A DNA stretch of 64,000 nucleotides, taken from NCBI GenBank assembly GCA_036874045.1, contig JAZBRI010000003.1:18329501-18393500 (forward strand), in the 5' to 3' direction. The position numbers were made by a program, and so were the translations under genes. Position 1 is the first letter of the stretch, and every line of letters starts with the position of its first letter. Positions 10,496-64,000 of the stretch are shown here, piece by piece. The stretch comes from Cymodocea nodosa (lineage: Eukaryota > Streptophyta > Magnoliopsida > Alismatales > Cymodoceaceae). A model generated the notes under the pieces. That model saw nothing but the letters and a program-made list of their open reading frames with translations. It did not search any database and was not told the origin of the DNA.

Positions 10496-10642
10496 ACCAC
10501 AGATAAAATAGTAATAGTTGGTTCGGAAAATGACCCGATTACCTGCCTAAACTTAGGGCTTATTTAACTAAAACCTAGGGTTTTGGGGGCATTATCCGGC
10601 AAATCATTTAGAATCTAGAATAATAGAAATCAGAGTGATTTT

Positions 10643-20384: not shown

Positions 20385-20389
20385 GATCC

Positions 20390-34019: not shown

Positions 34020-34834
34020 CTTTGTCTTCAAAAAATATTTATCAGAGTATCTGAAATTTGCTTTGCAATGTCTATACTTACTCTATTGATCTGATCAATT
34101 ATTGCTTGATCTAAATCTAACTGTGAAACTTGTGATGGTTGCTGTAAAAATTTGATATTTATGTCTATACGTAAATCTGTATGTGTATCTGTATTTGTGT
34201 TTGTATGTATATTTGTATTTGTATGTATACTTGTATTTGTATCTATATGTTGTTGTTCTGAAAACTATGTCGACTATTGTTGTTGCTGTTGTGACTGAGT
34301 TTGCTGATCCTATTGTTATTGTTCTTGTTGTCAAATTACAAGTGTATCTACTTCCTGGTATTTTTGTAGTTCTTTTGCAGAGAAAGATCTTGACTTTAAT
34401 CTTTTCTGTGGCCAAGGTGTAATATCTATTTGACTTGCCACAATTCTCAAAAGTGTATCACCATAAAATAATTTACTCTACAAGTTTAAGATATGAGAAA
34501 CAAAAATATCATACATGTTCACCTATATATGGTTAATTAATGCATATGTAGCATAAAGACAACATTTCCCAACCTCTACACCATGACCAAACCTTTGAAA
34601 GAGTGAAGGATGCAGTATTTTTGCAATAAAACATGCTTGGCCATGTAAATCATTTAGTAATCTCATTTGATTATTGGCAGTTGGATTTTTGGCTAAACTT
34701 TTAATGTCCCATCCCAACTAATAAACCCATTTTTTTCCTGATAATTTAACTCTTTCATTTTTCAAACCAAGTACTTGATAAAGTAATTCTAGAGTTAAAT
34801 ATATATCGTATTCTTGTATATTGGAAATAGGAAT
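34020..34834 (-). pseudogene. Env-like ORF, C-terminal part (second copy, family 2)
   Basis: It matches 7580-8375: a GQACFIAKILHPSLFQRFGH stretch, ATYALINHI, then a low-complexity tail of repeating Y/T/K/R residues encoded by a GTATTT-like microsatellite at 34160-34250. The poly-Q part of the first copy is partly replaced by T/N/R residues, so the tail evolves fast. It is broken, with a few breaks. Confidence 0.7.
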
Positions 34835-36622: not shown

Positions 36623-38650
36623 TTAAAGATCATGTAATGAACATATGCCTAGATTTCTTCTAATATGATTAAAGGTTGATTCATTTAAGGGTTTTGTGAA
36701 AATATCTGCAAGTTGTTTTTCTATTGGAACTAACTTGAGTGAGATATTCCCCTTTTCCACATGATCTCTTAAAAAATGATGTCTAATCTCGATATGCTTG
36801 GCTCTGGAATGGAGTACTGTATTCTTAGATAAGCTTATTGCACTACTGCTATCACAAAATATAACTGTATTCTGAATTTTCAATCTGTAGTCTGCTAAAG
36901 TTTGCTGCATCTAAAGAATTTGAGCACAACACAGACTTGCTACAATATATTCAGCTTCAGTAGTAGATAATGCAATACAGTTTTGTTTCCTACTGAACCA
37001 TGAAATTAATGAATTTCCAAGTAGTTGGCATGTGCCACTAGTACTTTTTCTATCAGATCTGTTGCCTACATAATCTGCATCATTATAGCCTGTTAACGTT
37101 AGATTGCTGTCAACTGAGTAGTATAATCTGAAATCTTTAGTACTTTGTAGATATTTGAAAATTTTTTTGACTGATTTCAGATGAGATTCCTTTGGTGATG
37201 TTTGAAATCTAACACACAAACATACATTGAACATGATGTCTAACCTACTTGCCGTAAGATACAACAGAGATCCAATCATGCCTCTATATTTCTTTTGATC
37301 TACTACAACACTTGAGTCATCAATTTCAAGTTTAGTGCTTGAACTCATTGGTGTGTTCGCAGATTTGATGTTTTCAAAGCCAAATTTCTTTAACATCTCT
37401 TTGCAGTATTTTTCTTGGTTGACAAAGATGCCATTTTGCACTTGGTGGATCTGTAAACCTAAGAAAAACTTCAATTCTCCCATCATGCTTATTTCAAATT
37501 TATTTTTCATCAAATTTTGAAATCCATGACATAGTTTTTCTGATGTAGCTCCAAAAACTATATCATCAACATATATTTGAACTATCAAAATGTGCAAATC
37601 AAAAGTTTTGATAAACAAAGTACTGTCCACTTTGCCTATAGAAAAATTATTTTTAGTTGAGAACTTTTTCAATTTCTCATACCATGTCCTAGGTGCCTGT
37701 TTTAGACCATATAAAGCTTTATTTAGTTTGTAGACATGATCTGGCTTGACTTCATCTTCAAATCTGGGAGGCTATATAACAAAAACTTCTTCTTGAATTT
37801 CTCCATTCAAAAATGCACTTTTCACATCTATCTAAAATAATTTTATGCTCATACTGCTTGCAAAAGCAAGCAACATTCTGATAGCTTCTATTCTGGCTAC
37901 AAGTGCAAAAGTTTCTTCGTAGTCAATACCTTCTTGCTGATTATAACCCTGTGCAACCAGTCGTGCTTTATTTCTGAGTATGTTTTCTTCTTCATCTAAT
38001 TTGTTTCTGAAAATCCATTTAGTTCCAATGATGGATTTTCCTATAGGTTTTTCCACTAATTTCTAGACATTGTTTTTCTAGAATTGATTTAATTCTTCCT
38101 ACATGGCCATTGTCTAGTAAATATCCTTACAAGCTTCATCTACTGATTTTGGCTCTGTTTTTGATACAAATACACAGTAATTGCAAATATCTTGTGTTTT
38201 GCTTCTAGTTTGTACCCCTTTGGTTATATTTCCAATTATTTGTTCCATGAGGTGATCAGATTTGAACTTCCAACTGTTTTGATTCTGATCTGAAGCTTGG
38301 GATTTGAGTTTCTACTTGCAGTTACCTTTTTCCAAATATTCATTTTCACTATCACTGTCAATCTTCAAATTTTTGAAATTCTGTATCAGATTTTCATCAA
38401 ACTGAACATTTATACTTTCCTCTACTCTTTTGTCTTTAGCAAAGTATACTTTGTAAGTTTTGCTTCTAGATGAGTATCCAACAGGTATGGCAAGTTCAGA
38501 TTTTGCATCAAACTTGTCTTTAGCATTTCTAGTGTTTAAGACAAAGCATTTGCATCTGAATGTCTTAAAATAACCAACATTTGGATTCTTATCAAACCAA
38601 ATTTCAAAAGGTGTCTTATTCATCATAGATCTGATGTGAGTTTTGTTGGA
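36623..38650 (-). pseudogene. Copia pol remnant (integrase end, RT, RNase H), family 3
   Basis: In minus-strand order: end of integrase (MMNKTPFEIWFDKNPNVGYF), RT with the IYVDDIVFGAT catalytic block, and RNase H with [10 protein letters not shown] and SKNTVLHSRAKHIEIRHHF. It ends LADIFTKPLNESTF, as SIRE-type elements do. It is broken, with about four to six breaks. Confidence 0.85.
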
Positions 38651-39559: not shown

Positions 39560-39945
39560 TTTTTCTGCAATAGATCTAACAAAGGAATGTTAACTTGTAC
39601 TTTTTCAAAAATTTCTCTGATTTTTTCTTGTTTTTCAGGTATTGTTTGTTGTAATCTTTCAGGATAGGGTGCTAAAGATTTTGATTTCCAAGATTCTTTT
39701 TCTTTCAGTTGATTTGTTTGATCATTTTTAGCTTCATTAGCAGATTCAGATTGTTCTTCAATGATTTCTAGATTTTCAGCTATTACATTTTCGTTATCTT
39801 TTTAATTTTTACTCTTATCCACCTTCATATCATTTTCATTTTGAGTTTTTGGTGGTATATCAGTTCCAGATCTTAATGTTACACAAATATCTTCCAGATT
39901 TTCATGCCACATTGTGCTAAATTTCTGAAGGATTGGTGAACTAGG
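39560..39945 (-). pseudogene. Athila-type gag-protease linker, minus strand
   Basis: The minus strand encodes NLEDICVTLRSGTDIPPKTQ. Farther along is a RLQQTIPEKQ to VQVNIPLLDLL stretch, the usual link between Athila gag and protease. It faces the opposite way to the protease at 39970, so an inversion junction lies at about 39945-39970. It is broken. Confidence 0.7.
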
Positions 39946-39969
39946 AAAAGAGAGCGAAAAGTTCTTAGA

Positions 39970-40793
39970 AATGTCTTTTTAGCTGAGCAAAGTAGTTCCT
40001 TATTTTTGCCACAAATTCCTAAAAAGTTATCTGATCTTGGAATCCCTATTATATCATGCACCATAGGAAATACTATTCTAGAAAGAACCTTAATAGACTT
40101 AGGTGCAGGTATAAATGTTATGCCTAGTGATATATTTGCATCCTTAGGATTAGAAGGCTTAACTCCTACTAGTACGGTTATTCAATTAGCTGATAGAAGT
40201 ATAAGATACCCTAGAGGAAAAATAAAGGATGTCTTAATTAAAATAAAAAATTTTATATATCCTATTGATATTGTAATTTTAGATTCCCAACAAATTAAGC
40301 ATAAAAATAGTGATACATCTTTAATTTTGGGAAGGCCATTTTTAGCAACATCAAGGGCTGTTATAAATTGTAAAACTGGAGTAATGAAGTTAGCATATGG
40401 TAATGAGGATACTCAATTAAATATTTTCAAACCAGAAAGGTTTGAAGAATTAGAAATGTCCTTACATACCATAGACTTTTTAGAGGATGAAGGAGATATG
40501 TTAGATGATGTGATTCAAGAAGAATTAAATAGGCAAATCAATTCTGAAATTTTAGAAGAAAGTGAAAGCATAAATATAGAAGGAGATATGGAAGAAATTA
40601 ATTTAGAAAATGATGATGTTCAATTAGGAGCTCTAGCTTTTGATGGGCAACATTTAGAATTAAAACCTTTACCTCTTGAATTAACCTATATATTTCTAGA
40701 AGATAAACGAACCTATCCAATCATTATTGCTTCAGATTTAAAAGAGGATCAAATAGCTAAATTAAAAGATGTAGTAAAAAGTTATAAAGAAGC
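39970..40793 (+). pseudogene. Athila-type aspartic protease region
   Basis: IPIISCTIGNTILERTLIDLGAGINVMP contains the D-L-G-A-G-x-N-x-M-P form of the retroelement protease active site usual in Athila/Tat lineages. ILGRPFLATSRAVI, the second conserved block, follows. An acidic linker leads towards RT but is cut at 40793 by a copia insertion. The frame reads open from 40006 to the insertion point; the upstream part is missing. Confidence 0.85.
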
Positions 40794-41171: not shown

Positions 41172-43810
41172 TCAACTATAAGCAAACACATTAAGTAAGT
41201 CTAAGCAATGCTTAAACTTGCTTTCAAGAACGCCTTTCGTAAACATATCGGCTGGATTGTCATGTGTGTTGATCTTCAAAATCTTCATGCGATCTTCTAT
41301 TCTAAGAAAGTGATAACGAACATCAATGTGCTTTGTCCTGTCATGAAACACATTGTCCTTCGTTAAGCTGATGGCACTGAGACTGTCACAGAAAATTTCT
41401 ACTTTATCATATCGCAGACCAAAGTCTCCAAGTAACCCCTTCAGCCAAATACCTTCTTTTGTAGGTTCTGTCATCGCCATATACTCAGCCTTTGTCGTGG
41501 ATAAAGATACAGTAGGCTGTAGAGTAGATTTCCAACTAATAATGGAATCTGCCAATGTGAAGACATATCCTGTTAAGGATCTACACTGATCAACATCACC
41601 TACAAAATCTGAATTAGAATATCCAGCTACACTACAGTTATGTTTAACACCATAAATCAGCCCTACATCAAACGTGCCCTTCAAGTATCTAAAGATCCTT
41701 TTCACGGCCTGCTAATGACTCTTCCCTGGATTTGACATAAACTTGCTTACAACACTAAGAGGGTAAGCAAGATTCGAATGAGTACAAACCATGGCATACA
41801 TAAGACTGCCAACTACCTGTGAATATGGAACTTTCTTCATGTATTCTTTTTCAGATTACGTCTAAGGTGCCATAGCAATTGATAATCGCAGGTTCCTATC
41901 ATAGGGCGTTCCGATGGCCTTGCTTGAAGCCATGCCAAACCTGCTCAAAATCTTCAGAACATAACTATATTGATGGAGAAATAATCTTCCAATGTTCCTG
42001 TCACGATAAATCTCCATCCCAAGGATTTTACCTGCCGGTCTTAAATCCTTCATTGCAAATTCAGATTTCAATGTGTCTTTCAAAACCTGTATTTCATTGA
42101 CATCTTTGGGTGCAATCAAAATGTCATCCACATACAAGAGCAAGTAGACAAATTCTTCTTTAATTTGTTTAATATAGACACATGAATCAAAACTACTTCT
42201 AACAAAACCAACATCAGTGATAAAAGAATCAAATCTTTTATACCACTGCTTGGGAGACTGTTTCAGCCCATACAAAGATTTCTGCAACTTACAAACGAGG
42301 TCTGATCTACCTCTTTTTGCAAAACCTGTTGGCTGTTCCATCCAGATGTCCTCATCTAAATCACCATGCAAGAAAGCTGTTTTCACATCCATCTGTTCAA
42401 GTTCTAAATCCTTTACTGCAACAATTGCCAAAAGGACTCGAATGGAGGTGTGTCTAACTACTGGAGCAAAGACTTCATTGAAGTCCACACCCTCCTTTTG
42501 TGAAAACCCTTTTGCTACCAATCTTACCTTATATTGTATTCCAAGGTTGCCCTACGTTCCTGATTTCCTTTTGAACACCCATTTGCAACCAACAATATTC
42601 CTATCCTTGGGACGTTTTACCAACTTCCAAGTCCTATTCTTATGCAAAGATTGTAGTTCTTCTTGCATAGCTCCCAACCAATGTACGGCTTCTGGTCTGC
42701 TAACGGCAGCATCAAAACTAGGTGGGTCAGCATCCACCTCACTAGCTACCTGTAGAGCAAAAGCGACCATATTATTGTAGCCATACCTCTATGGAGGGTG
42801 AACATCCCTCCTAGGATGATCTCTGGCAACACACCTTGAACGTGTGTCCACAACAAATTCATCTCCTCGATCTTCTTCTAAAATCAAACGTTGATCTGTA
42901 TCAACAGGAATAGACTGATCAGATATCAACGGTTGATTCAAATCAAGCTCCACCTACTCAGGAGTACTAGGTGGATTCAAAATAATTGGGTTTTCTTTCT
43001 TGTGGATCAAAGAAACCTCATCAAAGGTAACATCCCTGCTATGAATGACCTTTCTTGTTTCTTTATCATATATCCTATATGCTTTTACTCCCATTCCATA
43101 TCCCACAAAAATGCCTTCCTTGGCACGCGACTCCAATTTACCATGATTAATATGGTAATACGCAGGACATCCAAATACTTTCAATTTGGAATAGTTAGCC
43201 GCTTTATCCATCCATACTTCATAAGGGATCTTGTCGACAATTGCATTAGATGGCGACCTGTTCACCAAATAGGAGGCTGTGTTAACAGCTTCAACCCAAA
43301 AACATTTTTTCAGCCCAGCATGAGAGAGCATACACCTAGCTCTCTCCAACAACGTCCTATTAAGACGTTCTGCAACTCCATTTTATTGTGGAGTTCCCCT
43401 GACAGTATAATGTCTAGTTATGCTTGCATCTATGCAAAAAATGTCAAATTCATTTGAGCAAAATTCTAAACCATTATCTGTTCTCAAGTATTTTACTTTC
43501 CTCCCTACTTGGGTTTTCAACAATAACCTTCCATTGTTTAAAGTTCTTGAAGGCTTCACTCTTATGTTTCATAACGAAAACCCAAGTCATATGACTAAAG
43601 TCATCAACAATGGAGAGAAAATACTTAGAACCTGCTAAAGAGGGTTGTTGAGATGGTCCCCAACAATCTGCATGGACATAATCCAACTTCCCTTTGGTAG
43701 AATGTTCTACTCTTCCAAAGGAAACACGTTTTTGTTTCCCATAGATACAATGCTTGCATAAATCAATATCTGTAAAGATATGACCATCTAACCTGCCAAG
43801 TGTACTGAGC
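41172..43810 (-). pseudogene. Tork-like pol: integrase, RT, RNase H (broken)
   Basis: Integrase has RCMLSHAGLKKCFWVEAVNTA and NRSPSNAI. RT has KTAFLHGDLDEDIWMEQP, QSLYGLKQSPKQWYKRFD-like and LLLYVDDILIA blocks. RNase H has [18 protein letters not shown] and [10 protein letters not shown] and ends DMFTKGV. It is most like the plus-strand element at 58153-62946. It is broken, with a few breaks. Confidence 0.9.
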
Positions 43811-45594: not shown

Positions 45595-45910
45595 CGTAGT
45601 ACTAGCGTCGAACAAAGAACGCAAGCATTGATACGTGAACGCTGGCGTCCAGCAAAATGCGAACAATCACGCACGGGCGCTGGCGTAGGCAACGACAAAG
45701 ACAAATGCACGCAGGCGCTTGCGTCAGGCGAGGATGCGAGCAGTTGCGTGCGGGCATTGGCGTAGGCAACGACGTAGACAAATGCACGTAGGCGCTTGCA
45801 TCAGGCGAGGATGCGAGCGGTTGCATGCGGGCGCTGGCGCGGACGAAGACGTCGGCAAATATGCACGAGGGCTGGCGTGGGCAGACACTCAGACGATCGC
45901 GTGGGCAAGA
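45595..45910. repeat. GC-rich minisatellite, about 77-bp period
   Basis: GGCGCTTGCGTCAGGCGAGG is followed about 77 bases later by a near copy, and partial copies flank it (GCGCTGGCGTAGGCAACGAC). About three to four units are present. The high CG content is striking in an AT-rich setting. It lies where the 5' LTR and leader of the Tork-like element would be expected. Confidence 0.75.
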
Positions 45911-45926
45911 ATGAAAGTCAAGACTT

Positions 45927-47100
45927 GATACCTACTAGAATTCAATCAGGCTGGAGAGTATGTATAGACTATAGAAAGTTGAATGTTGTGACTAAGAAAG
46001 ATCATTTTTCCTTACCTTTTATAGATCAAATGCTAGAAAGATTAGCAGGGCAAGAATATTTTTATTTCCTAGACGGGTATTTAGGGTATAATCAAATCCC
46101 AGTAGCATTAGAGGATCAAGAGAAAACAACTTTCACCTGTCCTAATGGAACTTATGCTTTTAAGAGAATGCCATTTGGATTATGCAATGTGCTAGCTACC
46201 TTTCAAAGGTGTATGCAGGGTATATTTACTGGAATGACTGAAGATTTCTTAGAAATATTTATGGATGATTTTATTGTATATGGCAACTCATATGAAGTTT
46301 GTTTAAGTAATTTAGACCAAATATTAAAACACTATGTGGAAAAAAATCTGGTTTTAAATTGGGAAAAATGTCACTTCATGGTTAAATAAGGAATAGTCTT
46401 AGGGCATGTTGTTTCTAAGAAAGGGTTGGAAGTAAATAAAGCTAAAAAAGAAGTAATTTCTAATCTACTAGAACCTAAATTAGTAAAATATATTAGATCA
46501 TTTCTAGGACATGTTGGTTTTTATAGAAGATTTATTAAAGACTTTAGCAAGATAGCTAGACCTTTAACTAATCTATTAAAAGATGTTCCATTTAACTTTG
46601 ATAAAAATTGTAAGGAAGCATTTTTTAGACTTAAGATTAGCTTAATTTCAACTCCTATAATTCAAGTACCTGATTGGAACCATCCATTTGAATTAATGTG
46701 TGATGCATTTGATTTTGCTGTAGGAGAAGTGTTAGGATAGAAAATAGAAAAATCTCCTAGAGTGATTCATTATGCAAGCAAAACCTTAAATGATGCTCAA
46801 GTTAATTACACAACTACTGAAAAAGAATTATTAGCTGTTGTGTTTGCTTTAGAAAAATTTAGATCATATCTGATTAGAGATAAAGTAATAGTATACACGA
46901 ATCATTCAGCTCTAAAACATCTAATAAAGAAAAAAGAAACTAAACCTAGATTGATCTGATGGATATTATTATTACAAGAATTTGATCTAGAAATTAAAGA
47001 TAAAAAAGGTTGTGAGAATGTAGTAGCAGATCATTTATCAAGATTACAAATAGAAAAATCAAATATTGAAATTAAGGATAATTTTCCTGATGAACAATTA
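45927..47100 (+). pseudogene. Athila-type RT and RNase H (broken)
   Basis: It resumes at IPTRIQSGWRVCIDYRKLN, with FMDDFIVYG as RT catalytic block and [18 protein letters not shown] in RNase H. It continues the element whose protease is at 39970. The RT N-terminus is missing. It is broken, with about two breaks. Confidence 0.9.
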
Positions 47101-47193
47101 ATGACCATCAATACAATGCCTTGGTATGCAGACATAGTTAATTACTTAGTTACTAGTTTAACACCTAAGGATTGGAATAGATAGGATAAGAAA

Positions 47194-48423
47194 TTGTTTT
47201 TCTCAAGAGTAAAATATTACTATTGGGAAGACCCATACTTATTTAAGAAATGTCCTGATCTGGTTTTAAGGAGGTGTGTTCCAGAAATTGAATATTTGAA
47301 CATATTATCTTTCTGTCATGACCAAGCTTGTGGAGGACATTTTGGTTCAGGGAAAACTACTGCAAAAATTCTGCAATGTGGGTTTTATTGGCCAACACTA
47401 TTCAAAGATGCTCATAAATATTGCTTAAGTTGTTTAAGATGTCAACAAATAGGAAGAATATCAAAGAGGAATATGATGCCTCTTAATCCTATTGTTGAGG
47501 TTGAAATCTTTGATGTGTGGGGAATAGATTTTATAGGTCCATTTCCTATGTCTAATCAATTTAATTACATATTATTGGGGGTGGATTATGTATCTAAATG
47601 GATAGAAGCTATTCCTACAAAAACTAATGACAACAAAGTGGTAATACAATTTATAAGAACAAATATATTTGCCAGATTTGGAATACCTAAAGCTATTATT
47701 AGTGATAGAGGAAGTCATTTCTGTAATAGAAGTTTTAAAGCCTTAATGAAGAAATATGGAGTAAACCACAAAATTGCAACATCATATCATTCGCAAACAA
47801 GTGGACAAGTAGAAAGTGCAAACAAACAAATTAAATTAATCTTAGAAAAAGTAGTAAATCCTACTAGAACAGATTGGGCTAATAAATTGATAAATGCACT
47901 TTGGGCTTATAGAATTGCTTATAAAATGAGCTTAGGTATGTCACCTTTTAGGCTAGTATATGGAAAAAGTTGTCATTTACCTGTTGAAATAGAACATAAA
48001 GCTTATTGGGCATTAAAAACTCTGAACACTAATTTAAATCAAGTTATTGAAAATAGAAAAATGCAATTAATTGAATTAGAAGAATTTAGAAATGAAGCTT
48101 ATTCGAAGACTGTAAGAGAAAAAGAGAAAATTAAATTTTGGCATGATAGAAAAATTATTCCAAAAAGCTTTGAAATAGGACAAGAAGTATATCTTTATAT
48201 GGCTAGACTCCATAACCATCCAGGAAAATTAAGATCTAAATGGGCAGGACCTTACATAGTTCGAAATATTTATCCTTATGGAGCTATTGAAATTGAAAAT
48301 CCTAAAAATCAGAATATGTTTAAAGTAAATGGACAAAGATTGAAACCTATTCTAAAAACACCAAAAAGCTCCTTTGGAATTATTGAAGAAGTCAGAGTAG
48401 AGGATTACTCAAGCTTTACTTAG
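47194..48423 (+). CDS. Athila-type integrase frame (fossil element)
   Basis: A 409-codon open frame. The zinc-binding H-H-C-C region contains GGHFGSGKT and CLSCLRCQQIGR. The D-D-E core has VWGIDFIGPFP, IISDRGSHFC and SGQVESANKQI. Then comes VYGKSCHLPVEIEHKAYWA, a hallmark of Athila-type integrase, and a C-terminal PGKLRSKWAGPYIV (GPY/F) module. The frame looks whole over its length, but the parent element is broken. Confidence 0.92.
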   Translation: MFFSRVKYYYWEDPYLFKKCPDLVLRRCVPEIEYLNILSFCHDQACGGHFGSGKTTAKILQCGFYWPTLFKDAHKYCLSCLRCQQIGRISKRNMMPLNPIVEVEIFDVWGIDFIGPFPMSNQFNYILLGVDYVSKWIEAIPTKTNDNKVVIQFIRTNIFARFGIPKAIISDRGSHFCNRSFKALMKKYGVNHKIATSYHSQTSGQVESANKQIKLILEKVVNPTRTDWANKLINALWAYRIAYKMSLGMSPFRLVYGKSCHLPVEIEHKAYWALKTLNTNLNQVIENRKMQLIELEEFRNEAYSKTVREKEKIKFWHDRKIIPKSFEIGQEVYLYMARLHNHPGKLRSKWAGPYIVRNIYPYGAIEIENPKNQNMFKVNGQRLKPILKTPKSSFGIIEEVRVEDYSSFT

Positions 48424-48835
48424 TAAAAAAATCAGTTTTTTATGTTGATATAAAAAAAAAACATAAAAAATATATATATATATAATATAAAAATCGTTGC
48501 GGTTCAACCGACCAGATCCATCGGTATGACTAGAACATATAAATATGTATATTAATTTTTGAAAAAAATATTTAGGTCTGACCAAAACATTGTATCGGTT
48601 AAACCGGTAGAAAAACAAAAAAACTATTCTCTGTAATATTTTTATTATTATATATGTTTATACGGGGAGTCCATTGAGTTACGCTTAACTTAACGAGCTT
48701 ACTCCATTGAGTCTTAAGTTAGTCAACGAGCTTATTCCGTTGAGTTAACTATAACTCAATGGAGTATTGTAACTAAGACCGCAGATAAAATAGTAATAGT
48801 TGGTTTGGGAAATGACCCGATTACCTGCCTAAACT
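48424..48835 (+). other. Spacer between pol and env-like module, with inverted-motif array and telo-box
   Basis: An AT-rich start, then 48664-48768 with TCCGTTGAGTTA / AACTCAATGGAG pairs, as ahead of gag and F-box modules. A TAGGGTTT telo-box is at 48859-48866, just past it. From 48785 it parallels copy 1 (10501). Confidence 0.6.
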
Positions 48836-51172
48836 TTGGGCTTATTTAAACTAAAACCTAGGGTTTTGGGGGCATTATCTAGCAAATCAATTAGAATCTG
48901 GAACAGTAGAAATCAGAGCGAGTCCGTGCTGTTGGGTAACTCCATGATGAGGAAAATGATGCCTGAATTCTGGGAAGATGTAGTGGACACTACACAGTTT
49001 CTGAAGGAGTCTGAAGAATGACACATGTGGCAAAAGATCAGAAATACAACAAGAGAGAAAGAGCTACAAAAGGTAGAATCAGAACTTTTCAATTTCAGAA
49101 GAGATTTAGTAAATTCGGATATACAAATACCTCAAATAATGGAAACACGAATCAAAATAGCAACATAAATAGCTGTAAGCAAGGAAAGACAAATTAGGGC
49201 AAGTAATGAAGTTGCCCTAGAATTAATCCAACGTAAGTCCCAGCTCTGGTTCAAAAGATGATTCTGTAGATGAGCTAGATGGGCGATCTGGGAGCAAGAA
49301 AGAAAAGAAAATGAAGAAGAGGCAATTGAAGAACAGGAAGAACCAACTACTGAAAGACCTGTTCTTGAGGAACAACAGTTAAGACCTTCAGTTCCACCAT
49401 TTAAGCCACTAGCACGAGTAGAAATGATGGGGCCTTCGACTGAAGAAGAGTTAAAGGAATTTCAAACACTAGTTCAAGTTAGAAAAAACTAAGGAGAATC
49501 AGAAGATTTGGTAGGGGCTAAAGCACACCTAGTGTTTGATGCACTTTACAAAATGAGGGTTACATAAAAGTTGAAAGCCCAATATAAAATCAAATTGGAA
49601 TAGCATCAAGAAGCTACTACTAAACCTACTGCAAAAGGAGATGAAGCTGGTCCTTCGAGACTAGTAATTATAGAAAAAGTTAAACAGGAAGAGCCAGTAC
49701 CTGTGGCTCGAAGGCCTATAGAGCCTATTTTTGTAGATTTAATTTCAGAAGAAGAAGAGGAAGAACAAGCACAATTAATCAGAAAAAAGAAAGGAAAACA
49801 AAAAGTACCTGCATATGAAGAAATTAAATCTAAGATACCATTGTCAATTGGGCCTATGGAGCAAATTTTTATAAACCTGCTATCCGATTCTGAAGAGGAG
49901 CAGGAGCTGCAGCAATAGGAGCAAAGAAAAGAAGAAAATCAGGCTGAAATTAGTCTGCAGCCTGTACAAGAAAAAATAGAAATTAGGGTAGAAATTGAAT
50001 TGCCCGTGACTCCATCCCAATAAGTTACAGAATCAGAAAGAACAGTAACATAACAGATTGGTAGTCAGGAGAAAGAAGAAAGAACAGAAAATGAAGAGGT
50101 TGAAAGAAGCCATTTGGACAAAAAGAATTTCACAGATTCAATTGAAGAGCAAGAAACTCTTCAGCAATTTATGGAAAGAATTCAAGATAGAGTGGAGAGT
50201 TTTGCTGGCTCACCACCACAAACAGAAATAGAAATTCAGGAATCTGTTGAAAATGTTCAAATGCAACCTATGTTAGAGGAAGAGCAAGTACAAACCCCTT
50301 AGGAACAACAAAGTCACCTTCCTGACCCGATTGAAACAACAATTTTGAATGAAGTACATTTTTGTAGTCAAGAAGCTTATACCAAATACCAAGAAATAAG
50401 GGGTTATGACATTATTTACAATAGACCAGTAAATTGGGATGGAATGCAAGAAATCAAAGATCTATTTGAATTCCAAGGTCTACTGCAATTTATTTCTCAA
50501 TAGAGAGGGCATGTAGTATATGAGAATTTAGTGCCCCGCTTTTATGCAAATTTAAGAGAAAGAGAAATAGGGTTAATTTCAAATGTGAAGGAAGTTGACG
50601 TACAGATAACACTAGAGCTTCTCCACAACATTTTTGGTTTAAAGAATGAAGGAATAAAAATTTTGGAAGATACAACTACCGTCGAGTGGACTGAACAGGA
50701 AATTAAGGATTGCTTAGCTATCAATCCTGGTGTGCCATTATTAAACAGATTGAAGCATTTAAATGGTAAAGCACACATGGTAGCTAACATTCTAATTAAA
50801 AATGTCTATCAACGATAGGGCCATGACATAGAATTAAGCCAATTTGTCAAATGGGCCACATATGCAGTTGTAAATAAGATTCAAATAAATTGGTCTGTAG
50901 TTTTTTTCTCCAAGGTGAAAGTAGTAAAGAAAAAATTATTTTATGGAGATTTGATTCCACTATTGATGGTGAACTGTATTGATTTCACGAAATAGACATA
51001 AAAAAGGATCAGATCAAGAACCATTTCAGTGAAAGAATATAGAAATTTTGTAGCTGTAGAGATAGTTGTACCTTCTAGAGGAATTACAGGAGCTGTAGAG
51101 AGAATTAATCAATTAGAACTTCAATTAGAAAAACTCTCGAAGGAAGTAGATGAACTTAGGCATAGAGATTAA
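48836..51172 (+). pseudogene. Env-like ORF, Athila-type copy 2 (broken)
   Basis: It parallels 10643-12872 in order: charged helical N-part with LLGNSTMRKMMPEFWEDVVD, acidic DLISEEEEEE stretches, then the conserved domain with FEFQGLLQFIS, a ITLELLHNIFGLKNEG stretch and GKAHMVANILIKNVYQR. There are many breaks, about eight or more. Confidence 0.65.
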
Positions 51173-52140
51173 ATTGTATTGTTTGTCTACTTGTGTAAAA
51201 TTGTATGATGTACTTGTAATGTAATTGATTCATATTAATGAATGTAATTTCTCAGATGCAATTTTCATACATGTTTTGGATGTGAAATGAATGGAATTTA
51301 TTGAATATTATGTAATTTATGGAACTTTATGAATGAATATGTAACAGATTTACAATTTGCTGAATGATAGGATAAATGCTTAAAAATTTTTGCATGTTGC
51401 AAGGTAAAATGTAAATTCTGCATAACATAAAATGACCTGCAAGTTAAATCTTTATATAATGTTCAAATTTAAATGTATTTTAATCAGAATGATGCATTAA
51501 TGACATAGATTTAACTTTATTTCAGTTAGTAGAATGAAAAAGAAAAACAAAAAGAGAGGTACTTATGAGAGTAAAACTTAGAGGTTGCTAAGTGTTAACT
51601 CAACGAAGTAAGTCTGTTGAGTTAACCGTAAATCCATGAGGTTAGTAATATAATATAAGGTCACTCCGTTGAGTTATCTGTAACTCAACGAAGTTAGTCT
51701 GTGGAGTTAGCAACAGTAACCGACTGTGTTCTGTTGAGTTATCTATAACTCAATGAGGTTAGTTTGTGGATTAAGCAGAATAGTTATTCTTTTAACCATG
51801 AAAGAAACTTCGGCGGTTTAGCGGTTACTAAAATTTGAAATTAGTAGTGGTACACGTACCCATAAAAATAGGAACCACGATGCATGTTGCAAGACATGTT
51901 CTTGCAATGAGATTTATTCACTTTATGAATGTGCAGTATATATAAAATAGAATGTTATTTACGAGTTACCAGCACTTTTAAAAGAAGGGAGAATGCGTTG
52001 GAGGAACTGGAAGGAGAAGCAACTGATTCAACTTCATTCGACAATAAACAATTATTGAATGGAAAGCTTTAGACTGGTATGTAATTAATATTCTATTATT
52101 TATTTATGAGCACATGGACTCGTTCTCTAAGTACTAAAAG
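51173..52140 (+). other. Spacer with inverted-motif array before gag, copy 2
   Basis: It matches 12873-13889. AACTCAACGAAG and CCGTTGAGTTATCTG pairs lie at 51596-51765. Confidence 0.6.
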
Positions 52141-53443
52141 ATTAGTAAGAACACATACTCAGGAATTTTCATTGCAGAGAAGTACTAAAAAATTTTCTGA
52201 ACTGAACTTTAACGAAATTCTTTGGGGTGTAGCAACCTTTCTTTAAAAGAGAATGTAGAGATGGTTGCTCTAGTAGAAAAACCATTAGGAGAGATTCTGT
52301 ATCATGAATTAGTTGATGAACCTTCATGTATTCGATTACCAAACTTTGAGGGAGATAGGTTTGAACTAAAATCTAATTATATTAGTCAATTGCCACATTT
52401 TCATGGATTAGAAAGAGAGGATGCCTATTATTTCCTTAGAGAATTTAACAAATTTTGTCAAATGATGAAAATGCTGAACATGAGTATAGATCCTATTAAA
52501 CTTAGATATATCCCTTTTTCTTTAAAAGACAGCTAAGAGATGGTTATATACTTTGTCGCTTGATTCAATTTCTACATGGACTGAATTTTGCTCTGTTTTT
52601 CTGGAAAAATATTATCCAACACATCAAACGATTAAAAAGAAGAAAGAAATCTTAATGTGTAGCCAAAAACAGGGTGAATCATTTTGAAAATATTTTGAAA
52701 GATTTAAAGATTTACTGACTCAATGTCCACATCATGCAATGAGTAAAGCACAATTAATAGGTATAATTTATGAAGGCATAGATGTTTCAACGAAATCTTT
52801 ATTAGAATCTACTTGTCAAAGTGGATTTTTAAAGTTATGTAGTGAAGAAGCATGGGCATATTTAGAAAACTTTGCAAAAAGAACTACATAGTGGGAAAAT
52901 TCGGCTGAAGCTATTACAGATAAAAAAATATTGCCAAGAGAAATGCATGAAATAGATTCAAGTACTATGCTTGAGGTGAAATTAAATGAATTAACAAAGA
53001 AAATAGAAGAGTTATCATTAAATCAAAAGCTAGCAGAAAAGAATGCAAACATAAATGACGTAGATATTATTTTTGCTAGAAACTAGAGAGATAACTTGGG
53101 AAATTCTTATAATCCTAATTGGAGAAATCACCCGAATTTATCTTGGAGAAACAACAATTTCCAGGGAGGAGAAAATATAAATGAGAAGAATATAAGTCAT
53201 AAAGCATTACTGGAACAAGGATCTAGAATAGAGAAATTAGAAAAGATAATCCAACAATTAAACAATCGTCTAGATTTTGTATTTGACAGTGCTGCAATTC
53301 AAAATCAGAATAGAAATTTACCACTTAGACAGAAGGAACCAATGAAAGTTAGACCTACTAGAGGATTGCCAATACAAGCTATACCTAACCCTGTCAATAG
53401 AACGGTTGATGAAATTGATACCTCTTCTAGGAGGGTAGCTTAA
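52141..53443 (+). pseudogene. Gag-like region, Athila-type copy 2 (broken)
   Basis: It shows IRLPNFEGDRFELKSNYI, LPHFHGLEREDAYYFLREF and the NPNWRNHPNLSWRNNN motif, and ends near the same RPTRGLPIQAIPNP stretch as copy 1. The shared end point shows that the loss of the usual gag tail happened before the copies separated. It is broken, with several breaks. Confidence 0.8.
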
Positions 53444-53601
53444 TAAAGCAGCATATCTGAAGCAACTATTTGTATGTATATATGTTTTTATTTTTAGTTA
53501 ATAGTATCGTAGAGTTAGTCCTTAACTCCACAAGGGTGTGCAGTAGTTATGTTAATTTTTGTCTCTGCTAAATTTTTGTTTGTGTTATATAGAATCAATA
53601 A

Positions 53602-54741
53602 ATGGAATTGATGCAATTACCGTTGGATGCACTAAGGGAAGTACTGAGTAACTTGTCAGCTAAAGATCTGTGCAGGCTGTGTTGTGTATCAATGGAAATT
53701 AAAAACTGTATTGAAGAAAAATATTTTCAGGGACTACAAGCTACAAAAATGACTAAGATTAGAGATGGATTCATATGGAGGTCATTTAATCGTAGTTCAA
53801 TTAATCATGAATATCTGGATATGGAAGAAACTACTGGAATTCCACCCAATGCATTAGAAGGAATAAATCATATTATGGGGATAGATGAAGGATTAATCAA
53901 ATATAAGATGAGACCAAGGTATGCTAGTTTATTATTACCTGATATTTTGATAAGAAATCCTATAACAGGAGAAGAATGGAATATAGGAAGACCTAATAGA
54001 TTTGAAGTACCAACTGTAAATTGTGGGTTAGCTTCAATATTTTCTGATAAAAATTCTGCAATTCCTGAAAAATTATATTATTGGAGACCTATAGGAAATT
54101 GGGGTGATGATTTACGCTTAAGTGTGTATAATTTTTTGAATAGATCTTGGAATGAAAATATTATGATATATTTGGGACAGAAATCATTAATTAACCAAAC
54201 ACATGTCATACTTGATGGATATATATATCTAGTCACAGAGATATCAATAGCATATGAGTCTGATTTATACATAGTGAGCATAGACAATTATGATGAATAT
54301 ATAGAAATATTACCTGTACCGAGTGAAATAGCTAAACCACCATCTGTAGAATTTAATAAAATTCAAATAGGAATGTGGTATAATGAAGAAGATGATCCTA
54401 CTTTATGTTTGATAAGACGGTGGGATGAACTGATGAAATTTCAAATATGGATTATGGAAGACATAAATGAATGGAAGTGGGAAGAGGAGCATATTGAAAT
54501 AGATGTAGAAATAGAAACTGCTACATTACCTTGGAACCAAAAAGGATCCCTTTTTGCATTTCATATCATTAATGGTAATACACTTGTATTTGGAATTTAT
54601 AATATATTACATGTTTACAAATTAAAAAGGAACAAGAATTGCATGAAAACAGAATTAATAGCAAGAAGAACTATGCCTAAAAAGTTTGCTTGGACTGACA
54701 CGTTTATTCCATTTGTTTCTACTTTTCAATCATGTTCTTAA
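53602..54741 (+). CDS. Captured F-box/FBA protein frame in a retroelement, copy 2
   Basis: 379 codons, open throughout. The F-box is at residues 6-40 (LPLDALREVLSNLSAKDLCR). An F-box-associated domain spans about 105-345: IRNPITGEEW 117-126, WRPIGNWGDD 161-170, VILDGYIYLVT 202-212, LYIVSIDNYDEYIEILPVP 222-240, FQIWIMEDINEW 280-291, and a closing LVFGIYNILHVYKL. Such proteins link targets to SCF ubiquitin ligases through SKP1. It sits between gag and the 3' non-coding region, a place where some plant elements carry extra genes. A splice-acceptor-like TTATATAG precedes the ATG by 10 bases. The same gene in the same place in copy 1 shows it travelled with the element. The target and any present expression are unknown. 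Confidence 0.85.
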   Translation: MELMQLPLDALREVLSNLSAKDLCRLCCVSMEIKNCIEEKYFQGLQATKMTKIRDGFIWRSFNRSSINHEYLDMEETTGIPPNALEGINHIMGIDEGLIKYKMRPRYASLLLPDILIRNPITGEEWNIGRPNRFEVPTVNCGLASIFSDKNSAIPEKLYYWRPIGNWGDDLRLSVYNFLNRSWNENIMIYLGQKSLINQTHVILDGYIYLVTEISIAYESDLYIVSIDNYDEYIEILPVPSEIAKPPSVEFNKIQIGMWYNEEDDPTLCLIRRWDELMKFQIWIMEDINEWKWEEEHIEIDVEIETATLPWNQKGSLFAFHIINGNTLVFGIYNILHVYKLKRNKNCMKTELIARRTMPKKFAWTDTFIPFVSTFQSCS

Positions 54742-56500
54742 GCTGTGATTTTGTGTGTATTCTGCATTTATTTTTAGAAAAAAAAAAAGAAAAAAAAATA
54801 TAGTTTTCATTTTATTGTATAAAAAAAAAAACTAACAAAATACCAGTTTGTTGGTATCTGTTCTGGGAAACCAACTGGCTTGCTTGTGAGCCACCAAAGG
54901 CATAAGAGCCTAGGTTCCACACAAGACACTAATTTATTAATATCAGTTATTTTTTTTTATATTTTACTTTTATTTGTGAATGAAAAGTTTTTCAGAATCA
55001 AAAATTGGAATATGCAGAAGGAGATACAAATGCAACAAGGTATGTAACTAATTACTCATCCTGAATTTTAAATCAAAGAAACTGTATTCATGCCTGCTTC
55101 AATTACTGTACTTATTGTCAAATCTTTTACATTGAGGACAATGCAAAATGTAGGTATGGGGGGGGAAGTAATTAAAGTAACAGCCATGTAAGTTTGTTAA
55201 TTAAAGAAATTAAAATGATACTGCAAAGTTGTGGAAATTGAAAATTTTTATGAACTTACTGTAACTATCCGATAATTGAGACTGTAAAATTTATATAAAC
55301 TGTAACTACTTGAATGTTATATTTAGAAGGCTATATAAGATGCTATAGAATTTACTATTTATGCAAATCTAGATATAGTATCTTATGTGTTTTTTCTGAA
55401 TTTCATGAGTTTAACAATTTCACGATTTTAAAATGAAATCAGAATGCTTAATGAAAAAATTAGTAAATTATCTAAAGTCCCGAAGGAGCTGAAATGTGAA
55501 TTCTAGATTAAATGAAACACATATGATTAAAGATACATTTAATTTGACTGATTGAACTTGTAGAATGAATTATGTGTAGATCTTATTAAACTACAGAAAA
55601 AGTATGAGCTTATTGTTATGGATTCATATTTTCAGTAAATGATAGAAGTAGGACTAAATGAGATTGGTGATTACTACATCTGTATTAATGAAATACGTAC
55701 ATATACAGTATGTGATTAATGTTTTGTGTGTGTATTTTGATTGAAAAAAAAAAAAAGAGAAGAAAGAAAAAAAAGAGAGAAAATTTTGAGAGTTTATTGA
55801 CTTGTTTGATCACGAGCCTTTTGTACTTGAGCAGATAGGTATGTAAGGATTGTTGACCTGAGAAAGGACTCTTGAAATTTGGCAACCTAAGATCCTGATC
55901 AGATCTGTGATTGTTTACTGAAAGCTCGTTACATGGGTACATTAGAAAGCTCTTGTATGATTCAAGCCTGTCAAATTAACTTTTAAAGTAGGAAAAAAAA
56001 AAAAAAGAGAAAAAAATATACATATACTATTTTGAAAAGATACAAGTGTTTTGTGAAATACAGATATCTTTTGAATCGAGTATATTTTCTGTTGTCTAGA
56101 ATTGCTGTAATATGAATCTAGAATTGACTTTTGAAGTTGTTTAATGGAGATACAATTCTTTATTCTACTTATCTTAATCATATTGAATTAGATTGTATTT
56201 TGATTCGTATGTTGTTGAAATTTCTTCTAGAAATCTTATTGGAAAATTCAGGATGATAGATGATGAAAAGAAGAACAAAAGATAATATAATTAACACTTA
56301 TGTGATGATGATATACTTTGTATGTAATTTGCATATATTCTAAGTATATTTGCAAGTTGATTACTGAAACATACAAAATATATTTTTATGCTAAACATAA
56401 GAAAAAGAAAGGGGAAGAATTATTTCTAGCACTTTTTGAAAGACCAATTAATTAGATCTTAGTTTGTTAAGGGACTAGCAAAATTTAGGTATAGGGGAAG
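54742..56500 (+). other. 3' non-coding region of copy 2 with internal purine run and terminal polypurine tract
   Basis: It matches 16469-18190. ACATTGAGGACAATGCA and a following TATGGGGGGGGAAG lie near 55129-55168, and the terminal TTTAGGTATAGGGGAAG ends at 56500. Confidence 0.65.
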
Positions 56501-58152
56501 TGTTTAGAATGAAAAAGTGCATATTATTAATGGTTAAATGATGGTTAATTGCATAATATTTAGCTTATCATATAAGAATTAAGCCATTATGTTATAATTG
56601 TACTGTTATATGCTTTAATTGAAGAATCTGCTTAATTTTGGGGAATTAATGTTAATTTAGTACATTTCTGAACTATCAGTAAGTTGGAGGCTGTGAAATT
56701 CTTAAGTATCCGAATTTTTTGATAATTTAGATAGTTATATTTAAAAGACCGATCATGTCGGATAGTTATATTTAAATTGCCGAGCAGTTATGTTTTGAAA
56801 GTTTCCTGAAGTTAACAATTAGTCGTTTCGTTGCATTAATTTCTCATTTAGCTAAACATTAAGTTAACATGTGTTTTTATTGAAAAGCATGATATGCTTT
56901 AAAGTTATATCTTCTGTATCATGAACAGTGCACATTTTGATAACTCGTTAAGTTAGTGAGTAAAAGAAGAGACGAACTCGTTAAGTTAACATAACTAAAC
57001 GCGTTGAGTTGCTATATTGAACATTAAGGCAACACGTTAGGTTAGCGTTATAAACTTAAGTTATATCTTCAAAGTGTCACACCAACCATCGAAGGTCTGT
57101 GAGAATGCTTTCTTGATGTCGGGTCGATTTCGAGCCAAACATAGTGCCTGACAACCACTGTGAGGAGTGATCGCGTCGCAGGAAGGGAAGCCATTTTCAC
57201 TAAGTGTCGACTCATATTTCAAGAGATCGTAAAGCTTTTAGCCTTGGCTTCGGGTTGATGCCTGTATGCTGAAGAGAAGATTATCTTGCAATTCTAGACT
57301 CGCGATTCTATAGGGAGAGGAGACAGAATTGTAAGTGGTTTAATTTTCAGTGGTGTAATTAAAGATTACTTTAAATTTGATTACTTTACAAGTAATGTCA
57401 GAAGTATTTATTGTTGAGTGAGATTACTTTACATTTCACCTTTCGCCCATTTCCATGTTCATATTAAAACAAAAATACCAAAAACAATTTATCTATGCTG
57501 GTATGTTATATTTGAGTGTTGTATCATGATTAATGTTATCTTTGTCAGTGTTGTGATTGTTTTATGTTTGTTTTAGTTTTACAGTTTACTGAAATTAGTT
57601 CATTCAAAAGACTTAAAGATTTTAATGGTTACTATTTGAATTATCTGAATGTTAGTATTGCTTAATGATAAATCCAATGTTAACTAACATTAAAGAGCTT
57701 AATTGATGTTATTTACAATCTGTGGAATCGCCTAATGGTTGGCCAAATTCCTCTATAAATAGTAGTATTAAAAAGAAAAGACAGGCTCGTGGAGTTAACT
57801 TAAGTCCAAGAGGTTAGTCCGTTGAGTTAGCCATAACTCAACGAACTTTGTCCATTGAGTTAACTGTAATTCAACGAAGAGCTTATTAAATATATAAATT
57901 TGATTATTAACAAACGAACAGTTCTCAAATTCTTTAGCAATTCCATGTGGGATTGACCTGCACTTGCACACTGATACAATAGACACTGTGCACTTGCAGT
58001 TAAAGTACAAATTGGACTTAATATCTAAATTGTATCAAAAGGTTGTTTGTTTACTTCTAAAAGAAATAATAGGCATAAAGATAAATGAACTAAGTAAAAA
58101 TAGAAGTAACAAATCCAAGTTTTTCTAGTGTAGTGCTGGGAAAATACAAACA
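56501..58152 (+). repeat. 3' LTR of Athila-type copy 2, mosaic (1652 bp)
   Basis: It begins TGTTTAGAATG and ends ACAAACA. Between about 56805 and 57065 the usual Athila-type U3 is replaced by a block matching the reverse complement of the SIRE-type family 1 LTR (61500-61915): GTTGCATTAATTTCTCATTT, AAGCATGATATG, TCTTCTGTATCATGAAC, GTTGAGTTGCTATATTGAAC. The second half returns to the Athila type. Confidence 0.85.
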
Positions 58153-58211: not shown

Positions 58212-59123
58212 ATGTGGCACTTAAGGATGGGTCATTTGGGGCAGAAAGGAATGCAGAAATTGAGTAGTCTGGGTAAGTTTGATGGGCACAAGGTTGCTTG
58301 TATTGACATGTGCAAGGATTGTGTCTTTGGCAAACAGAAAAGAGTGTCATTTGCACGCAGTCAGCATAGCTCCAAGGGAGTTCTTGATTATATTCATGTT
58401 GATTGTTGGGGGCCTTCACGTCAGCCTTCTATTGCAGGTTCTAGATATTTTCTTTCTATCATTGATTGTCATTCAAGGATGAACTGGGTTTTCTTTTCGA
58501 CACACAAAAGTGAAGCTTTTTCTTGCTTCAAGCATTGGAAGAAGCAGGTAGAAAACCAAACAGACAGAAAGGTAAAATATCTTAAAACTGATAATGGTCT
58601 TGAGTTTTGTTCTCAAGAATTTGATAACTTTTGTAAAGATGAAGGCATTACACGACATAACACTGTCAGGTATACCCCTCAGCAAAATGGAGTGGCTGAA
58701 AGATTGAACAGAAAACTCCTAGAAAATGCACATTATATGCTCTCTCATGCAGGTTTGAGCAAGAAGTTTTGGGCAGAGGCTATTAACACAGCTTCCTATC
58801 TGGTGAATAGGTCCCCTTCTAGTGCCTTAGATGGGAAGATACCTCTTGAGGTATGGTTGAAAAGATCTGCTAGTTATTCAAAGCTTAGAATTTTTGAGTG
58901 TCCAACTTACTATCATGTGAACAATGGCAAGCTGGAACCACGTGCCAAGAAAGGCATATTTGTGGGCTATGGTGTTGGTGTAAAGGGATACAAGATATAT
59001 GATATTGAATCTCACAAAGTAATATATAGCCGTGATGTTACTTTTGATGAGGATTCTCTTTTGCAGGCAATAGATAAACTAGCAGGTGAAACACTAGAAA
59101 TTGAGCACACCCTTCCTGAATAG
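58212..59123 (+). CDS. Copia integrase frame (fossil element)
   Basis: A 303-codon open stretch with the HLRMGHLGQKGM pre-integrase block, a C-x2-C pair (CKDCVFGKQ), DYIHVDCWGP, KTDNGLEFCSQEF and RYTPQQNGVAERLN as the D-D-E core, then AINTASYLVNRSPSSAL. It has the standard copia order. The parent element is broken. Confidence 0.92.
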   Translation: MWHLRMGHLGQKGMQKLSSLGKFDGHKVACIDMCKDCVFGKQKRVSFARSQHSSKGVLDYIHVDCWGPSRQPSIAGSRYFLSIIDCHSRMNWVFFSTHKSEAFSCFKHWKKQVENQTDRKVKYLKTDNGLEFCSQEFDNFCKDEGITRHNTVRYTPQQNGVAERLNRKLLENAHYMLSHAGLSKKFWAEAINTASYLVNRSPSSALDGKIPLEVWLKRSASYSKLRIFECPTYYHVNNGKLEPRAKKGIFVGYGVGVKGYKIYDIESHKVIYSRDVTFDEDSLLQAIDKLAGETLEIEHTLPE

Positions 59124-62573: not shown

Positions 62574-62946
62574 TGTGATGTGTGTGTCTTCCATCAAGTA
62601 TATGTATGTGTCTTTGTATATGGTTGTATTTCTTTGATAATTTGTATAGGGGCAAACTTGTCTTTTGTGTATCACCAACCGTTGCCCCTATATATGTAAG
62701 AGGTCATCCACATCTAAGGGATGCCATGCCAAACCATCCCTTGATTTCGTTCTCCCCCTTCTTTGTACCAGCAACCATACAGCAAGGAATCACGATAGAT
62801 TGATCACCCGTGGACGTACCCGTGTTGGGGAACCATGTAAATTTTTTGTTCTTTGAATTCTCCACTTGCAATCCTCTCTTCCACACAGATCTCTTCTCCA
62901 CGCCACCCCTAGATGCTCCACATTTGTTTGATCTTTTCGTACAACA
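62574..62946 (+). repeat. 3' LTR of the copia element (373 bp)
   Basis: It begins TGTGATGTGTG after the purine tract and ends GTACAACA. TATATATGTAAGAG near 62690 may be its TATA region. The flanking ATGAT could be a target duplication; the other end is not in the window. Confidence 0.8.
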
Positions 62947-64000
62947 ATGATAATATAATTAACACCTATGTGATGCTAATATATTTTGTATGTAATTTAC
63001 ATATATTCTAAGTATATTTGTAGGTTGAAGAGGAGAAAACAAAGTTAAAACAGATTACTAAAACATACAGAAAATCTATATAGCAATCTAATTTATTATT
63101 TTGAAGAAGAACTAGGTGAAGAATTAATTCTCGCACTTTAGAAAGACCAACTAATTAGATCTTAGTTTGCTAAGGGACTAGCAAAATTTAAGTATGGGGG
63201 AAGTGTTTAGAATGAAAAAGTATATAATATTAATGGTTAAATGATGGTTAATTGCATAATATTTAGCTTATCATATGAGAATTAAGCCATTATGTTATAA
63301 TTGCACTGTTATATGCTTTAGTGAAAGAATCTACATAATTTTAGGGAATTAATGTTAATTTAGTACATTTCTGAATTGTCGGTAAATTGCAGGCTGTAAA
63401 ATTCTTAAGTATCTGAATTTTCTGTTATTTCAGAGGGTTATGTTTAATGTACCGGACAGTTATGTTTTAAAGAATATTTTATTATTTCTTGAAGTACACA
63501 TGTTGAACTTAAATGCTTTAGTATATCACGTGAGATGCACATGTTTAACTCGTTAAGTTAGCATAATTGTGCATGTTGAGTTAGATGAATACACACTAAG
63601 GTAACACGTTACGTTAATAGCTTATTTCTTTATTGCACGTGTTTTATAGTTAAATCAACGAAGTAAGTCCGTTGAGTTATCTGTAACTCCACGGACTATT
63701 TAATTTCTAATAAGCCACTACATCGGTTACAAAAACAAGACATTCGAAGGAAAACCACGATTGTATGTATCACATAGGAATTCACTCTTGGAAGGGAGAA
63801 GAAATCACTATTGTTGATCTGAATGAAGGAAATCCAACCGATCATCTAAAGCAGAAGCAGTTACTACTAAAGAAATATAAAAGAAGAGGAGAAAAAATGA
63901 AGAAGGTGTGGTTTGAAGTGTGTGGCAGTGTGTGTAAAGGTGGAGGACCATGCTAACTACAGGCGACGTCGGAAGTTCATTGAATCATCCACACTATCAC
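62947..64000 (+). mobile_element. Athila-type element, copy 3: 3' internal end and LTR start
   Basis: 62947-63203 matches 17965-18190 and 56281-56500 (GATAATATAATTAACACC onward) and ends in the tract AGTATGGGGGAAG. The LTR starts TGTTTAGAATG at 63204 and runs off the window. Within it about 63490-63640 is exchanged for SIRE-type family 1 sequence (TCACGTGAG, TTTAACTCGTTAAGTTAGC). At 63775-63880 it keeps a GAAGAAATCACTATTGTTGA stretch also present at 10425 and 19110. Confidence 0.85.

Follow-up and report, generated by a model that had tools for sequence, protein, structure and literature searches.

The 64-kb stretch of DNA analysed here (the window) holds at 53602-54741(+) one intact open frame of 379 codons, which a preliminary description had taken for an F-box gene carried inside a retroelement. 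The locus raises the question of whether this gene belongs to the element around it and, if so, what an LTR retrotransposon could gain from an F-box protein. The F-box claimed at the start of the frame was recovered by profile search: Pfam PF00646 matched residues 4-41 of the 379-residue frame with an E value of 7e-9 and 35.7 bits, against a cut-off of 20.5, and matched all 14 intact copies scanned (best 1.9e-10). Behind it, where an F-box-associated domain had been claimed, FBA_1 (E 0.0073) and NCBIfam TIGR01640 (26.9 bits) did match the C-terminal part, but both fell below their cut-offs in the copy that carries the frame (copy 2). FBA_1 was found at E ≤ 0.1 in 12 of the 14 intact copies scanned (best 6e-4), and we regard such a domain in the copy 2 protein as only suggestive. 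A search of 5.8 billion proteins gave 1170 candidates and no homologue of the frame at E ≤ 1e-3, and no relative was found among viral contigs, where neither of two pattern matches was related. In the PDB, the sequence search returned two weak unrelated hits (E 0.44 and 0.87) and the profile search none, and single-sequence fold prediction was poor (pLDDT 34).

A second copy of the gene (copy 1) lies upstream in the window. The parts of both copies, together with an unoccupied relative of the repeat that copy 1 entered, are as follows.

9500-9504 (+): target duplication GATCC on the left of copy 1, seen in the sequence
9505-10496 (+): truncated 5' LTR of copy 1, at a K2P distance of 0.079 from its own 3' LTR
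14386-14601 (+): gag piece of copy 1 (PF03732, 3.7e-6)
15349-16468 (+): F-box gene of copy 1, its frame disrupted by indels
18191-20384 (+): 3' LTR of copy 1, about 2194 bases, TG...CA
20385-20389 (+): target duplication GATCC on the right of copy 1, seen in the sequence
32436-34834 (-): empty-site relative of the target repeat of copy 1, without the insertion
39904-40793 (+): protease region assigned to copy 2, taken from collinearity as part of the same insertion
45909-48423 (+): RT-RNase H-integrase of copy 2, collinear with L064 and L065 as far as these extend
48775-52076 (+): region from integrase to intron donor (5' exon side) of copy 2, common to copy 1 from 10493
50504-50815 (+): ORF A of copy 2, weak match to PF20167 (Transposase_32), below cut-off
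52077-53592 (+): GT-AG intron of copy 2, 1516 bases, AGACTG / GTATGTAAT ... TTATATAG / AATCAATAAATGG
52213-53443 (+): gag (capsid) coding region of copy 2, inside the intron, broken by stops and a frame change
53602-54741 (+): F-box gene of copy 2
56490-56500 (+): polypurine tract TATAGGGGAAG before the 3' LTR of copy 2
56501-58152 (+): 3' LTR of copy 2, TG...CA, with 56802-57079 unlike the LTR of copy 1

Copies 1 and 2 share their flanks over 10493-18524 and 48775-56801 with 88.7% identity. Copy 1 had been said to hold the same gene in the same place with the same flanks; place and flanks stand, but its frame is broken, with losses of 1, 9 and 10 bases relative to copy 2. Its acceptor is TTATACAG, with the last base at 15339. 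Similarly, of the LTRs and target duplications said to bound it, the LTR ends and GATCC on both sides are present, but only 992 bases out of about 2194 remain of the 5' LTR. GATCC on both sides and the unoccupied relative at 32436-34834 indicate that copy 1 was inserted into another repeat. We rejected the idea that copies 1 and 2 are one segmental duplication, given that their 3' flanks differ. We also rejected copy 1 as the natural form of the element, since the integrase precedes the start of the shared region at 11 of 12 loci, the window among them, with L054 as the one exception. Copy 1 thus resembles a deletion product.

Copy 2 seems instead to have kept pol and to have been broken up by a Copia-type element nested in it: a minus-strand insertion (RVT_2 at 41862-42548) parts its protease from its RT, and its RT-RNase H-integrase is collinear with 11 of the 12 loci across the integrase end. 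Its gag matches PF03732 at 1.2e-4 on 52688-52888, just under the cut-off of that profile, and the order seen there, gag, F-box and then TATAGGGGAAG, places the gene between gag and the 3' polypurine tract as originally described. ORF A, which we take to be possibly at an env-like position, matches PF20167 at E 8.5e-4 with 19.7 bits against a cut-off of 45, and no PF20167 match at E ≤ 0.05 was found in the ORF A pieces of two other copies. We found no 5' LTR of copy 2 within the window and no primer binding site at the 5' ends of copies 1 and 2; the one match to a canonical primer site in the window (25446, three mismatches) lies outside both.

Besides copies 1 and 2, the window holds no further F-box match, and LTR pieces related to this element family (about 69-82%) lie at 4877-5250 and at 62946-63964, the latter with about 260 bases of 3' inner sequence. 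Copia-type frames are nested among gypsy-type ones at 36911-37768(-) and 41862-42548(-) (RVT_2, 2.6e-34 and 3.7e-63), and another at 58212-59120(+) combines gag_pre-integrs with an integrase core. A short motif around GTTGAGTTANNNNTAACTC, noticed by eye at 48668-48768, 13303-13490, 15177-15305, 20023-20115 and 51595-51763, turns up in either orientation within the LTRs and inner regions of several elements. Finally, two long open frames at 26005-29459(-) each carry one half of a protein kinase domain (PF00069, 4.2e-37 and 1.2e-14) and are probably exons of one host kinase gene.

The gene had been described as present in two copies, which holds within the window, but a search of the 374.6-Mb assembly (28 contigs) scored at least 108 full-length matches to the 379-residue frame, out of 7035 first-look candidates. 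These matches are 89-93% identical, the query's own place excepted, and copy 1 is not among them, so that 108 is a lower bound. We examined the flanks of 50 copies, copy 2 included, chosen as the best protein scorers of the 108 matches, a choice that enriches intact frames. Element sequence stood on both sides in 50 of 50, and the LTR was reached at the expected distance in 18 of the 20 loci with longer flanks. This search for copies with the same flanks upholds the claim that the gene belongs to the retroelement; a gene occurring only as a host gene without element flanks was not what we encountered in this sample.

F-box genes are numerous in plants, and a host F-box gene with elements nearby by chance, duplicated together with its surroundings, could in principle give such a picture. 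However, all 50 copies sit in element flanks on many contigs, target duplications accompany two insertions, and copies 1 and 2 differ in their 3' flank. By flanks and duplications this explanation is refuted for the copies examined, and we give it practically no chance. Intact F-box frames were found in 18 of 51 copies, in a sample favouring intact ones, and most single copies appear to be decaying. Three close F-box copies on contig C2 (L035, L037 and L040, within about 0.41 Mb) have a common 5' break at window-equivalent 52614 and are probably local duplicates.

The order of the whole element is 5' LTR, primer site, zinc knuckle-PR-RT-RH-INT, ORF A, intron with the gag capsid, F-box, polypurine tract and 3' LTR. 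It was assembled from one locus read in pieces (the C19 copy, made up of L064, L055, L025 and L066, with a 372-base gap between L055 and L025 unread) and from a second 5' half (L065), which is collinear with it. By coordinates, the C19 copy measures about 16.2 kb end to end. It has a 5' LTR of 2241 bases, a TGAAC duplication on both sides, a K2P distance of 0.062 between its LTRs and a 3' LTR that now ends in TA. The primer site TGGCGTCGTTGCC, presumably resembling the tRNA-Asp primer site of Athila elements, lies 7 bases behind the 5' LTR in L064. A CX2CX4HX4C zinc knuckle was seen in both L064 and L065, and the order PR-RT-RH-INT, with a gypsy-type RT, rests on matches to RVT_1, RT_RNaseH and integrase, the protease match being below its cut-off. 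The marks of an LTR retrotransposon are all present: direct LTRs with TG...CA ends, 5-base duplications (GATCC in copy 1, TGAAC in the C19 copy), the primer site in L064 and the polypurine tract. By its gag type, its Ty3/gypsy-type RT and the presumed likeness of its primer site, we tentatively assign the element to an Athila-like group of Ty3/gypsy.

The position of the capsid gene is unusual. No gag capsid was found before the protease at E ≤ 1 in either of the two 5' halves (L064 and L065). It lies behind the integrase in copy 2 and downstream of an integrase end in a distant relative (L067, see below), and the L065 locus continues with 21 codons from the start of the capsid frame and then enters a nested repeat (L073). 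A longer open gag is found at L045:540-1616 (PF03732, 1.4e-16). A capsid gene behind pol and inside an intron also departs from the usual gene order, and one may ask how such an element forms its particles. This capsid stands apart from the zinc knuckle-protease-RT frame and is yet constrained over many copies.

How would the F-box frame be expressed from such an element? The 1516-base intron of copy 2 starts with GTATGT and ends with TATATAG behind a U-rich stretch, and its acceptor, 9 bases before the F-box ATG, was judged splice-like before other copies were compared. First, the intron is exactly absent in 8 of the 50 copies (L007, L019, L023, L025, L027, L028, L038 and L044), which are joined as AGACTG / AATC (6 by letters and 2 by BLAST coordinates). 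Second, this joined site occurs with at most two mismatches at 200 places genome-wide, every listed one without mismatch, against 0 for the reversed control; these are places, in which separate events and descent from spliced parents are not told apart. Third, the acceptor AG is kept in 21 of the 23 unspliced copies displayed and lost in L005 and L018. Fourth, the eight spliced copies need eight changes on the 51-copy F-box tree, which is the maximum and is also reached by 631 of 1000 label shuffles. They are thus unclustered, as random scattering gives, and the closest copy is unspliced in all eight cases, with tree supports beside spliced copies of 0.27-0.93. One spliced copy on contig C1 (L051 and L023) stops at its 5' end at window-equivalent 48943, and the 4.3 kb beyond that end have no match to the window, LTRs included, in keeping with a 5' truncation.

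The 1516-base difference might also be an ancient deletion or insertion variant, spread by recombination or template switching and unrelated to splicing. Athila families do recombine (PMC2410132), a single spliced 3' end could have reached several lineages if template switching occurred between packaged RNAs, and tree supports next to the spliced copies span the range given above. Against this, GT and AG stand at the two edges and the 3' end is U-rich, the same join recurs in the eight copies and is matched at the 200 places, and all eight spliced copies have an unspliced copy as their nearest; we consider such a variant quite improbable. Since template switching is possible, the number of independent events is uncertain and could be lower than the copies suggest. 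The C19 copy is itself spliced and yet has two LTRs, a primer site and the TGAAC duplication, so that spliced RNA was very probably the template of its transposition. Together, these data make splicing of the F-box element well supported, and the spliced element RNA was very probably reverse transcribed. Because pol and ORF A sequence remain upstream in the spliced C19 copy, translation of the F-box frame from that RNA would need a bypass of the long leader, further splicing or an inner promoter.

The gene is also found beyond the main family. Three copies of an older subfamily (L068-L070), with 77-79% amino-acid identity, are still in elements, and the one member scanned (L068) matches the F-box. 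On contig C7, the more distant L067 shows 33-40% identity across F-box and C-terminal part (E 2.5e-53) and has its own Pfam F-box match (1.5e-7) in an interrupted frame. There, the order is integrase, F-box, gag, with an integrase end upstream (45 residues, 53%) and a gag capsid downstream (181 residues, 61%), and the F-box ATG is preceded by TTTTATTTTCAG. The C-terminal part of L067 has another seven matches, spread over six places, with 61-87% identity. With 150 of 1639 candidates scored, 38 out of 145 genome matches exceeded the TIGR01640 cut-off; L067 and L070 are among these 38 and are relatives of the F-box gene. From these comparisons, the F-box gene was either long carried by this element lineage or taken up repeatedly by related elements. 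Among the genome matches examined, a part of those listed, none was recognised as a host gene that could be the donor. As for the form of the capture, a poly(A)-tailed cDNA was rejected as a firm claim, since A-runs of at least 9 occur 15 times in the window.

We then asked whether the F-box frame is kept by selection, comparing synonymous with non-synonymous differences between copies. Under a pairwise codon model with transition bias, ω between window copies 1 and 2 was 0.30 (LRT 16.8), whereas null windows from the rest of the element gave LRT values of at most 7.9 (18 windows) and 7.1 (118 windows), and the other two frames of the gene gave ω of 1.10 and 0.88. The simpler NG86 method did not separate the gene from its surroundings: its dN/dS of 0.355 was matched or undercut in 16.7% of 3684 overlapping null windows. 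The p of 0.004 from an NG86 simulation was dropped on the same ground, null windows elsewhere in the element being equally low, and the codon model was used instead. Over 80 random pairs of the 51 copies, median ω was 0.35, with 67 of the 80 pairs significant, and in the first 40 of these pairs frames 1 and 2 gave 0.98 and 1.12. In the older subfamily, ω was 0.21-0.25 among L068-L070 and 0.245-0.56 against the main family (LRT 5 to 47).

For other frames of the element, ω was 0.38-0.44 for RT, 0.45-0.49 for the protease-side frame, and 0.32 for the ORF A pieces between the window copies. For gag, median ω was 0.49 with 37 of 70 pairs significant (other frames 0.86 and 0.90), measured with an open copy as frame; the broken frame pieces of the window had given 1.05. 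Between the window copies alone, gag gave 0.65 with an LRT of 1.6, which is not significant. Counts of shared against singleton variants in 49 of the 51 copies (without L035 and L040, which nearly duplicate L037) are ambiguous and lend weak support. In frame 0, the non-synonymous to synonymous counts go from 214/73 in singletons to 21/20 in variants common to at least 10 copies, and nonsense variants from 23 to 0, but for variants common to at least 3 copies Fisher p is 0.002 in frame 0 and 0.0003 in frame 1. Taking the codon-model results together, purifying selection on the F-box frame, about as strong as that on RT, is well supported.

These values bear on whether the gene is a passive passenger, picked up from the host a single time and since copied along with the element while being of no use to it. 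LTR elements often take up genes, with 672 captured genes reported in rice and 1343 in sorghum (PMC3726574), and the decay of most single copies, with so few intact frames even in a favourable sample, is what a passenger would show. However, the in-frame ω values of the main family and of the older subfamily lie well below those of the other frames, which are mostly near 1, and the older subfamily and the distant relative still sit in elements. We hold this explanation to be improbable.

We consider it likely that an Athila-like family has retained an F-box gene as a lasting accessory, probably expressed by splicing and with a product presumed to act as an SCF adaptor. Unspliced element RNA would serve the capsid, and RNA joined at the acceptor before the ATG would serve the F-box protein, by analogy with env in retroviruses. 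As expected from its family, the protein would join the host SKP1-cullin, and whatever its C-terminal part binds would be marked for degradation. The most likely classes of target are a host factor limiting the element or a protein of the element itself. The target may be a host protein that limits the element, for instance in RNA silencing, which is the least supported step of the scheme; a role against silencing or defence proteins was labelled speculation in the preliminary description too. A fuller and tentative version of this proposal sees a rearranged lineage, with nucleocapsid and pol first and the capsid in an intron behind. Splicing might then switch the element from capsid to an F-box protein directed against a host silencing factor, which would make it the retrotransposon analogue of viral F-box suppressors, old enough for identity between two families to have fallen to about one third.

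The other class of target leads to self-regulation, in which the F-box protein would turn over an element protein (capsid or integrase) or a cell-cycle factor, so timing assembly or replication with no role in defence; the choice to splice would in that case decide whether capsid is made or kept in check. Gag and F-box do flank one splice choice and both frames are constrained by their median ω, but gag alone is not significantly constrained between the window copies, and the sequences do not tell a host target from a self target. We regard self-regulation as possible but doubtful.

Several known systems resemble the element proposed here in part. The Athila/Calypso clade (Ty3/gypsy OTA) likewise has a PF03732-type gag, PR-RT-RH-INT, large non-coding stretches, extra ORFs 3' of pol and 5-base duplications. 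It also includes pol-less gag/env elements, which are frequent among Arabidopsis Athila (PMC2410132), and copy 1 also appears pol-less. In contrast to that clade, the element described here has its capsid gag behind the integrase in an intron and a 3' F-box gene. In PMC6317226, the classing of 8453 Ty3/gypsy elements used the domain order GAG-PROT-RT-RH-INT, and the term 'F-box' has 0 occurrences in its main text; only 21.4% of the extra ORFs in that study resembled a known domain. Extra ORFs, env-like splicing and gene capture are described in a review (PMC7264820), according to which the extra ORFs of plant retrotransposons are mostly without known function. Among the titles and abstract openings of the literature listed, we found no plant LTR retrotransposon encoding an F-box protein, and supplementary tables could hold F-box hits.

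With respect to splicing, barley Bagy-2 (PMC7264820) is an Athila-clade element with a 3' sense ORF and a spliced RNA, but its ORF is env-like, whereas here the ORF encodes an F-box protein and gag lies in the segment removed. For Diaspora, an Athila-clade element without env, it was proposed that improperly spliced RNA was packaged and reverse transcribed and the gene lost in one step (PMC1142308). The intron-less copies found here resemble that process, with the difference that env loss was proposed there and precise intron loss is seen here in many insertions. In the Copia element EVD, splicing of shGAG also sets the balance of element products (PMC8892269), but it yields the GAG RNA there and removes gag here.

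With respect to the gene itself, orchid Ty3/gypsy elements carry an m6A demethylase (PMC9289625), likewise a host-type regulatory gene fixed as an accessory ORF. That RNA demethylase was tested in vitro, whereas the product here is a presumed ubiquitin-ligase adaptor recognised by its sequence. In the accompanying screen of 121 genomes, the domains named do not include F-box, a term with 0 occurrences in the main text. Polerovirus P0 (PMC6356646) is an F-box protein encoded by a plant parasite that uses SCF against AGO; it belongs to an RNA virus, and the functional likeness is a conjecture made without sequence comparison. The extra gene described here has a recognisable biochemical role, many copies, in-frame selection and a likely expression route recorded as intron-less insertions, and what a plant retrotransposon gains from an accessory gene becomes directly testable.
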